Positions 1-2,469 of a stretch of DNA of 32,231 nucleotides are shown piece after piece. The translations under genes and the position numbers were made by a program. Location: contig CANSGE010000004.1 of assembly GCA_947646295.1 (NCBI GenBank), forward strand, positions 1 to 32,231, written 5' to 3'. Numbering within the stretch: position 1 is the stretch's first letter; the number at the start of each line of letters is the position of its first letter. Below the pieces are notes generated by a model. That model did not search any database. It was not told where the DNA came from and saw nothing but the letters and a program-made list of their open reading frames with translations. The stretch is from an uncultured Bacteroidales bacterium. GTDB taxonomy: Bacteria > Bacteroidota > Bacteroidia > Bacteroidales > Muribaculaceae.

Positions 1-1757
1 CTGCTCCATAAGTTGGTGCTGGTCAGGCCTACTGCACCGTAGATCTTTGTGTTCACGTCAGTCCAGGGCATCTGCATGCCGAAGGTCTGGTAGTCCTTGG
101 TGAGCTGAGAGTACTTGATAGTCTTCTCGGGCATCACGATGGCCTTGTCAGGCTGCGGGTTCTGCTGCTGTGTCTCGCGGGTGATCTGTACCTTGATGTA
201 AGAAGAAGCCACCATGCGTTTCACACCGGCGTTGTCGGTGATGAAGGCGTCAACGCGCACAACGGGAGTACGGCCGATAGCGGCTGTGTTGGGCTTGTCG
301 CCGAGATTCTTGGCATTCAGGGTCAGCACGCCGTCGGTCAGAGTCACGAACCACTGCTGGTTGGTGTTCTGGGCATCAGCTGCTTTGTATTCAGCGGGGA
401 GGCTGAATTCGTAGCTCATGCCGCTGAAGTTGAGCTTCGAGAGCATGCAGCTTTCTGTGGTGCAGTAGAGGTCTACGTAGTCATAGAGGTTGAGACCGTT
501 GGCATCGTCATACTTGAAGGTGAGGTTGGCAGCTTTGTCAAGTGTCACACCGCAAGTCTTCTGGATGAAGTCGCTTGTCTCAGCGGCTGCATTGGCGAGC
601 ACGTAGTTACGTGCATAGTATGTAGCGGGCTGTGTGGCAGCGGTGGGGTTGACGATCACAGCTTCAACAGCTTTCGACGATACTGCGATATAGTCCGAGG
701 TGTAGGGGCTTGTACCTGCCCAGACCTGTGCGGCCACGATGTTGTTCTTGGGGCTGGCAGCAAGTTTCGAGGGGTTGATGAGCGCGCTCAGTGTCAGTTC
801 GCCTGCTGAGTAGATCTGGTCGCCGGCGATGTTGACAAGGAGGTTGTTCATATCACCGGTGGCGCGTGATGTCACGGCACGGTTGATGAAGCCTACATTC
901 AGGGTTTCGGGAAGAGTTGCCTCGGTGGGGTTGATGCGGTAGTGCAGTTTCACTGCGTTTGACTTGTCAAATGTCAGGTGTTTGAAAGTCTTGGTAGTGG
1001 TGGCCTCTGCATCGTCGATGTAGTAAGCGAGGTTGTAGAAAGGCTCGTCAGTGGTAGGATAAGCTACCTGGCTGCTCATCACGCTGGGGATGAAAGCTAC
1101 AGAGCCCATCGGAGTACCAGAGTTGATGGTCACGCTCTTCTGGTCGCCGTCGAGACCGGAGATGATCAGGTTGGTGCCGTCGAGCACAGCTGAGAGACCG
1201 CCTTCTACGTTGGCACGCCATGAGATGTTGGTCGATTCTACTTTCTTGCCGTCGATATATTTGTCGAAGCAGCCTGTTTCAGCATTGGGGACGTAGTAGA
1301 TTGTCTCACCGTCTTTGCCGTCGGTACCGTTTGTACCGTCAGTACCATTGGTACCGTTGGTGCCGTCTGTACCGTTGAGACCTACAGCACGGTATTCGGT
1401 CTTCTGGCCGTTCTTGTACCAGTAGCCGTCGGTGCCGATTGTCCATACGTCGGCATCTTTGCCATTCACACCATCTGTGCCGTTGGTGCCGTTGGCGCCG
1501 TCCTTGCCATTGGTGATGGTGTAGCTCTTGCCGTCGGAGAGAGTCACTACAATACCATCGGCGTTGGTGGTAACGCCGGTGATCACTGCCCCGGCGTCGA
1601 TTTTGGCTTGCAGCTGCTCAACCGATGCCTTGATAGCGTTGACTTGAGTCTGCAGGTTGTCAATGTCATCATCATAATCCTTGCAAGATGTGAATGAGGT
1701 TGACATCGAAGCGCACATCATCGAGAGGAGTGCGATTTTCAAATAACCTTTGTTCAT
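1..1757 (-). CDS. Surface lipoprotein with DUF4988/PL29-N-like N-terminal region and collagen-like repeats (3' truncated by window edge)
   Basis: Not in the supplied ORF track because it runs off the edge. Reverse strand reads MNKGYLKIALLSMMCASMSTSFTSCKDYDDDIDNLQTQVNAIKASVEQLQAKIDAGAVITGVTTNADGIVVTLSDGKSYTITNGKDGANGTNGTDG... and I saw no stop down to base 1. SPII lipobox (SFTSC) followed by acidic KDYDDD, a lipoprotein surface-export-like signal. Confidence 0.85.
   Translation of the reverse strand, partial: MNKGYLKIALLSMMCASMSTSFTSCKDYDDDIDNLQTQVNAIKASVEQLQAKIDAGAVITGVTTNADGIVVTLSDGKSYTITNGKDGANGTNGTDGVNGKDADVWTIGTDGYWYKNGQKTEYRAVGLNGTDGTNGTNGTDGTNGTDGKDGETIYYVPNAETGCFDKYIDGKKVESTNISWRANVEGGLSAVLDGTNLIISGLDGDQKSVTINSGTPMGSVAFIPSVMSSQVAYPTTDEPFYNLAYYIDDAEATTTKTFKHLTFDKSNAVKLHYRINPTEATLPETLNVGFINRAVTSRATGDMNNLLVNIAGDQIYSAGELTLSALINPSKLAASPKNNIVAAQVWAGTSPYTSDYIAVSSKAVEAVIVNPTAATQPATYYARNYVLANAAAETSDFIQKTCGVTLDKAANLTFKYDDANGLNLYDYVDLYCTTESCMLSKLNFSGMSYEFSLPAEYKAADAQNTNQQWFVTLTDGVLTLNAKNLGDKPNTAAIGRTPVVRVDAFITDNAGVKRMVASSYIKVQITRETQQQNPQPDKAIVMPEKTIKYSQLTKDYQTFGMQMPWTDVNTKIYGAVGLTSTNLWS
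1306..1380 (-). repeat. Collagen-like G-x-x coding repeat (LNGTDGTNGTNGTDGTNGTDGKDGE)
   Basis: About 9-bp-period imperfect DNA repeat (ggtaccgttggtaccgtc...) encoding GTDGTNGTN; a second shorter tract (KDGANGTNGTDGVNGKD) lies at about 1461-1515. Confidence 0.8.
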
Positions 1758-2202: not shown

Positions 2203-2469
2203 TGACGTGGGATCTGTTACTCTCAGGCTCAATCCACGTCGCAGGCCTTCGCAATGCCTCTTACCGGAACGAGCAACTCAGACAGCCCACGTCACTGATG
2301 CTTATATTGGCACGCGTAGTTAAGCGGTACGTGATGGGGCGCGTGTGGGCGCCCATCACTACCGCAGGTCGCGTGTGTAAACATCAACCGTGGACGCTTA
2401 CATTGCTGTTTCTCCGGTAAGTCAAAAGTTGCGAAGTTTGGACGTGGGGAAACGATTAAGTAAACGTCA
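2203..2469 (-). ncRNA. Candidate structured RNA: long rod-like nested hairpin in the leader of the small HTH gene
   Basis: Nested complementary blocks read by eye (+ coordinates): 2203-2208/2464-2469, 2228-2233/2455-2460 (one G-U on minus), 2234-2240/2441-2447, 2247-2254/2429-2436, 2260-2268/2413-2421, 2272-2276/2403-2407, 2285-2291/2389-2395 (one G-U on minus), 2296-2300/2382-2386, 2311-2316/2370-2375, 2324-2342/2349-2365; apical loop 2343-2348. Confidence 0.6.

Follow-up and report, generated by a model that had tools for sequence, protein, structure and literature searches.

The window, a stretch of 32,231 nucleotides from an uncultured Bacteroidales bacterium of the Muribaculaceae, contains a predicted minus-strand transcription unit whose parts, all read on that strand unless stated otherwise, run from a promoter through a structured RNA into a pair of genes. 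As the first-pass annotation had proposed, a promoter of the Bacteroidota type is legible in the sequence at 2545-2577, with a -33 TTTG (2577-2574), 21 nt and a -7 box TAATTTTG (2552-2545), and transcription probably begins near 2541. The predicted fold places 5'-terminal hairpins between the transcription start and the RNA core (2540-2483), as is usual at the 5' end of other copies, and the core itself occupies 2201-2471 according to folding and a covariance-model match (2193-2297, 66.4 bits). The interval had been described as lacking a credible ORF, which holds: frames at 2043-2420 on the plus strand and 2232-1921 on the minus strand span it, and neither looks coding. The first gene of the transcript, found by ORF analysis at 1899-2123, encodes a 74-aa Cro/CI-like HTH protein, and behind it lies a large surface lipoprotein-like gene (1-1757; MNKGYLKIALLSMMCASM...TSCKDYDDDID; MNK...TSCKDYDDDID) that continues past the window edge, so placed that the transcript would carry both. 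The two genes stand together, in conserved synteny, in most of the HTH orthologues examined.

The core had been read as one nested rod at 2203-2469, and the minus-strand fold of 2190-2480 recovers the helices and coordinates of that rod. Its MFE of -117.1 kcal/mol is far better than that of dinucleotide-shuffled controls (mean -81.5, sd 4.95; z = -7.2), none of 200 shuffles being as good; the plus-strand fold of the same segment reaches -115 kcal/mol (z = -5.96). From outside inwards, the predicted outermost helices (2471-2464/2201-2208 and 2463-2458/2217-2222) are followed by A1 (CCACGTC/GACGTGG, 2447-2441/2234-2240), the site of the strongest covariation in the family; A2 (2436-2429/2247-2254), a conserved heptamer CTTCGCA(A)/(T)TGCGAAG that is near invariant in type I copies, shows compensated swaps elsewhere and is our proposed loop-loop nucleus; and A3 (2421-2412/2260-2269), supported by both family covariation and the predicted fold. 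The inner helices A4 (2407-2402/2272-2277) and A5 (2395-2389/2285-2291) are predicted by folding and entered the antiterminator pairing test described below, the CGTGGGC strand of A5 being one that helix P3 of the second fold also uses. Further predicted helices (2387-2378/2295-2304 and 2375-2370/2311-2316) lead to the apical ones (2365-2360/2324-2329, 2359-2352/2331-2338 and 2351-2349/2340-2342), which belong to a variable stem-loop at 2324-2375 in the region that differs most in length among copies.

The rod is nevertheless only part of the picture: it stands as a structure, but not as the sole fold, because some of its bases are reused in a second, competing arrangement comprising a 5' hairpin domain and a terminator-like helix. 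The 5' domain is closed by the 9-bp helix P1 (GACGTTTAC 2468-2460/GTAAGCGTC 2401-2393), which is supported by the sequence, by compensatory changes in the family and by the MFE folds of nascent transcripts of 156-276 nt, and within it the nascent-transcript fold forms P2 (2453-2447/2415-2408). The terminator-like helix P3 (TGACGTGGG 2294-2286/CCCACGTCA 2211-2203) is legible in the sequence and supported by covariation of P3 and P4 together, and it encloses P4 (2274-2263/2239-2227), the inner helix of the 3' hairpin in the fold of the 3' domain. Folded alone, the 3' domain of the window copy reaches -41.8 kcal/mol, and the 3' hairpin alone averages -40.6 kcal/mol across the family.

This RNA belongs to a large family. 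BLAST of the leader among 148 relatives gave matches in 29 genomes, mostly in two blocks, one per half of the leader (5', AAACTTCGCAACTTT; 3', GGCAATGCGAAGGCC). A covariance model (R1) built from the 3' half finds four copies in the window's own genome, copies in 84 of the 89 genomes of its family, the Muribaculaceae, and copies in 90 of the 148 relatives overall; the highest number per genome, 16, is a lower bound, as only the best candidates were scored. In a phylum-wide sample of 399 genomes, the same model at E <= 1e-5 hits just two, that of the window and a second from its order; the model is therefore specific, and the RNA hardly occurs outside Bacteroidales. Named carriers include Muribaculaceae, Prevotella, Xylanibacter rarus, Prevotellamassilia timonensis, Paludibacteraceae MAGs and Bacteroides caecigallinarum, together with complete plasmids of Phocaeicola dorei CL06T03C03, P. 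vulgatus CL10T00C06 and Bacteroides finegoldii. The copies L245:3147-3251, L246:3004-3107 and L247:2680-2784 lie on P. dorei and B. finegoldii plasmids and on a 4.3-kb 'Bacteriophage sp.' scaffold that has no annotation, and such plasmid and scaffold copies suggest spread with mobile DNA. A viral origin is unlikely, since the exact pattern has no match in IMG/VR, though two short, unannotated 'Bacteriophage sp.' scaffolds carry it.

The position of the family relative to genes identifies it as a leader. Among 155 copies, 148 have a downstream ORF in reach, and this next gene is co-directional in 142 (96%), whereas genes on the upstream side show no preferred orientation (73 to 61). Start codons follow the end of the RNA at a median distance of ~58 nt, a figure that RefSeq CDS on plasmids, independent of our own ORF calls, reproduce with starts ~60 nt after the RNA. 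A -7 box TAnnTTTG occurs within 260 nt upstream in 135 of 142 copies, where ~18 would be expected by shuffling, and lies between RNA and gene in only 9 of 128. Because the promoter is upstream of the RNA and almost never between it and the gene, the RNA is an mRNA leader; these family positions and promoter counts bear out the proposal that it forms, on the minus strand, the leader of a gene behind its own promoter. It has what is expected of a cis-regulatory leader, lying between promoter and co-directional gene with a conserved structure that shows compensatory changes. The same evidence makes it improbable that the RNA is an independent ncRNA, that is, a stable terminated transcript acting in trans whose place before genes is secondary. 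A very stable rod, a promoter and terminator of its own and a multicopy distribution like that of the FopS sRNAs of Bacteroides would all suit such a molecule, but the co-directional next gene, the tight distance to it and the lack of an intervening promoter would not, and the A1 and A3 sequences are private to each copy, which leaves no shared trans target apart from A2. A leader-peptide attenuator is ruled out as well, as there is no conserved short leader ORF: upstream ORFs occur in 69 of 131 copies, compared with 83 in shuffled sequences.

The genes behind the RNA are diverse. A Pfam scan of 127 downstream genes found the BspA-type leucine-rich repeat to be the commonest domain (10 genes); six others encode Cys-Xaa-Xaa-Xaa radical SAM target peptides (TIGR04117), and the rest include outer-membrane barrels, TRL-like proteins, UvrD-type helicases, DNA methylases, DUF4007, a dynamin-like protein and small HTH proteins. 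Downstream genes are enriched in N-terminal hydrophobic segments (64.5% vs 43.3% of other ORFs, p = 4e-5), and they share no metabolism. At L039, L127, L134, L182, L186 and similar loci, from different species, the RNA precedes Cys-Xaa-Xaa-Xaa repeat radical SAM target peptides, which are RiPP precursors.

The suggestion that the leader is particular to the HTH gene therefore did not survive: the same RNA precedes many unrelated genes, and some syntenic HTH orthologues do without it. It is present before syntenic orthologues at L006, L007, L009, L017 and L019; at L008, L014 and L015 the leader is a version with a different core (TCGCCAAA/TTTGGCGA); and at L010-L013 and L018 the RNA is absent, with the promoter 51-75 nt before the start codon. 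Its variable presence at syntenic orthologues shows the RNA to be a module that is acquired, dropped or swapped in the interval from promoter to gene. A different conserved leader (GATTACATC...CTCGGCAATTCGGTC...GAAAGTGATGGAACGGCTCTTC...TTACATCCCGTTTGTAATATTT), without an Rfam match in the three genomes concerned, stands before small HTH genes with ~50% identity to the window's at L024, L025 and L027.

Comparison of homologues, in an alignment of 143 sequences, reveals strong covariation in the long-range helices of the rod. The strongest signal joins the two halves of the RNA, at columns 37-45/161-169 (A1, with all four Watson-Crick pair types) and 64-70/137-143 (A3). Six A1 pairs (E<0.05) exceed every pair of 40 tree-simulated alignments free of structure, and this covariation is not a product of selection of sequences, because copies were chosen by the A2 core only. 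A small hairpin formed locally at the 5' core (columns 44-45/59-60), which competes with A1, also covaries significantly; at the strict level, significance is confined to A1 and this hairpin, and P1-P4 rest on shuffle and slide controls. Where the A2 core varies it does so in a compensated manner (CTTCGCA/TGCGAAG, TCTCGCA/TGCGAGA, TTCTCGCA/TGCGAGAA, CCTGGAA/TTCCAGG, CTTAGCA/TGCTAAG, CTTCGAAC/GTTCGAAG and also TCGCCAAA/TTTGGCGA), as if subfamilies carried different loop-pairing codes. Loci L008, L014, L015, L022 and L023 share the leader architecture with another core (TCGCCAAA/TTTGGCGA or CCTAGGAA/TTCCTAGG), and a strict pattern for the TCGCCAAA variant matches just 2 of 100 genomes. In 137 of 145 copies the MFE fold is the rod.

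The first-pass annotation had argued for a minus-strand RNA from two G-U pairs, and this reasoning holds family-wide: G.U far outnumbers A.C in P4 (346:14), P3 (151:21) and P1 (276:49), which makes the RNA one of the gene's strand, and does so again in the 5' local hairpin (128:11). This asymmetry, present on one strand only, is what chiefly decides against a DNA-level element such as a MITE-like mobile hairpin or a folded-DNA recombination site, in which neither strand should favour G.T over A.C mismatches. Multiple copies near accessory genes and on plasmids, present or absent before orthologous genes, are what such an element might produce, but the orientation to the gene and the upstream promoter are fixed, and copies within one genome have diverged and form no cassette arrays; we accordingly reject this possibility, raised when the locus was first annotated, as exceedingly unlikely.

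The second fold is conserved alongside the rod. Standard pairing reaches 91% in family P3 (GCGTGGG/CCCACGC) and P4 (GTTGCTCGTTC/GGAACGAGCAAC) taken together, where 11 pairs show changes on either side, and moving the partners by 1-3 columns lowers pairing to 43-48%; P4 alone is 92% paired. P1 (GGCGTTTAC/GTAGATGCC) is 88% paired, with compensatory changes, compared with 36-50% when slid. The 12 nt 3' of P3 are 71% U across the family, compared with 25%, and the family thus has the GC-rich hairpin followed by a U-run that marks an intrinsic terminator. In the window copy only ATTCGTATATAAT, a poor U-run, follows P3; judged by its sequence, this copy is perhaps weakened and may not terminate, or may act on translation.

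The rod and the two-hairpin fold compete, because P1, P3 and P4 share bases with A4 and A5 and because geometry would forbid closure of P2 and P4 once A1-A3 are fully paired. With both A1-A5 and P1-P4 supported and sharing bases, the rod has the properties of a conserved, mutually exclusive antiterminator, and A5 antiterminator pairing shows a small excess over that with shuffled middles (94% vs 86%, p = 0.014). At full length the rod is favoured over the two-domain fold by ~14 kcal/mol, so that switching must depend on kinetics or on a ligand. When nascent lengths of the window copy are folded, the 5' hairpin fold persists up to 276 nt and the rod takes over from 288 nt, as the 3' core emerges.

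A third element lies between the U-run and the start codon. This short segment, D, ~47 nt downstream of the 3' strand of P3, reads GGGGTCTG at 2180-2173 in the window and is complementary to CAGATCCC (2216-2209) on the 3' strand of P3 over 8 pairs, one of them G.U. Across the family the complementarity is significant (longest D/P3 match 5.4 nt vs 3.6 shuffled, p = 1.7e-18) and includes compensated variants (GATTCCC/GGGAATC, GACTCCC/GGGAGTC, ACACCC/GGGTGT and CGACCC/GGGTCG); in about half of the copies the pairing is absent or short. The MFE fold of the read-through RNA contains both rod and D pairing in 54 of 110 copies, although in the window the MFE fold leaves D within a local hairpin.

From the family, its leader position, both folds, the U-run and the D complementarity, all of which sequence comparison establishes, we infer an order of events, a direction of control and the existence and nature of a signal. 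By its sequence, the transcript from the upstream Bacteroidota promoter passes through the RNA and into the gene ~60 nt beyond, and its leader can take either of two folds. In one fold the 5' half forms the P1/P2 hairpin with CTTCGCA in its loop, and the 3' half the P3/P4 hairpin with TGCGAAG in its loop, followed by the U-run as an intrinsic terminator; in the other, the two loops pair (A2) and pairing spreads through A1 and A3-A5 into a long rod that dismantles both hairpins. The 5' hairpin would form first, the loop of the emerging 3' half would kiss the 5' loop, and strand exchange would yield the rod, in which the terminator could not form and the gene would be read through. A signal (a metabolite, protein, RNA or condition) that held the 5' domain closed would let the terminator form. 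Pairing of D with the terminator strand, once that strand is released, would secure read-through or adjust translation. On the evidence of sequence and modelling, these loci represent a large cis-acting leader RNA family of Bacteroidales, and we think it probable that the family works as a bistable attenuator.

The main rival is that the same two folds control translation. With P3 formed, D near the start codon would be free and the gene translated, and in the rod the released 3' strand of P3 would pair with D and cover the initiation region. Both the place of D just before the start codon and its compensated complementarity to the P3 strand agree with this, as does its pairing alongside the rod in about half of the read-through folds. 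Such control would also be the better match for the window copy, with its poor U-run and a D that can pair over 8 bp. The family's U-rich tract after P3 is, however, a requirement of an intrinsic terminator, and roughly every second copy has little or no D pairing; we consider translational control rather unlikely.

Returning to the bistable attenuator, we favour, on balance, a reading in which it constitutes a new class of large leader RNA, found in almost every genome of the window's family and in part of the other Bacteroidales, whose hairpins with complementary loops would fuse into a rod and so, in response to one common signal, govern read-through into a dispersed regulon of genes for surface proteins, peptides, defence and regulators. 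The mammalian gut is dominated by Bacteroidales, and to our knowledge few cis-regulatory RNA classes are known in this order. Placed before BspA-like surface proteins, Cxxx radical-SAM peptide precursors, DNA methylases, helicases and small HTH regulators, as many as 16 copies in one genome would suggest that surface and accessory functions answer to a shared signal. The lack of a shared metabolism among the regulated genes could also be read in favour of a binding platform for an RNA-binding or processive antitermination factor (a NusG paralogue or similar), with the rod's conserved internal loop AA/GCC as recognition site, and this loop and the A2 core are indeed the most conserved sequence. 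We regard this as quite doubtful: the analysis brought up no candidate factor, the sequence of A2 comes in several versions, and the downstream genes are not long operons, unlike those of known processive antitermination systems.

An Rfam 15 scan of the window and 24 related loci at permissive E returned matches at chance level only, none of them on the RNA, in keeping with the earlier inability to assign it to a known family; the RNA family is absent from the Rfam catalogue. The likeness to 6S RNA that had been suggested consists in a rod with internal loops and goes no further, as the present RNA is multicopy and leader-borne and matches no 6S model in the Rfam scans. With T-box and metabolite riboswitch attenuators it shares the 5' leader position, mutually exclusive folds, a terminator-like 3' hairpin with a U-run and repetition across a regulon, but it differs in lacking an Rfam match, in its diverse targets with no obvious common ligand, and in an antiterminator that is a global 270-nt rod formed by the pairing of two hairpin loops. 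Kissing-to-duplex RNA pairs such as CopA-CopT, which serve plasmid copy control, likewise start from a kiss between the complementary loops of two hairpins, from which a long duplex can grow; in the present RNA both hairpins share one leader, so that the exchange is intramolecular. The openly accessible journal literature yielded no description of this switch.

Two previously described Bacteroidales RNAs deserve mention. The FopS sRNAs of Bacteroides are also a multicopy family, but they are 65-70 nt long, with a single-stranded seed and one terminator hairpin, and act in trans on susC mRNAs (PMC11697453); length and architecture rule out identity with the present RNA, which is ~270 nt and situated before a gene. 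The candidate structured RNA HMP2_1881 is an uncharacterised 108-nt element, mostly from Bacteroidetes, near radical SAM genes and expressed in stool (Fremin and Bhatt 2021; PMC8040213), and the accessible text of that report describes no full structure, switch or multicopy leader role for it. Compared by description only, it might be the 3' domain of the present RNA, which measures ~106 nt and belongs to a family with six Cxxx radical SAM targets downstream. DUF805b RNA (RF02914) is excluded as the identity of the leader, its match at L022 being a separate one: this sub-threshold hit (1342-1377, minus strand; 31.6 bits, E 2.8e-5) lies downstream of the HTH gene at that locus.
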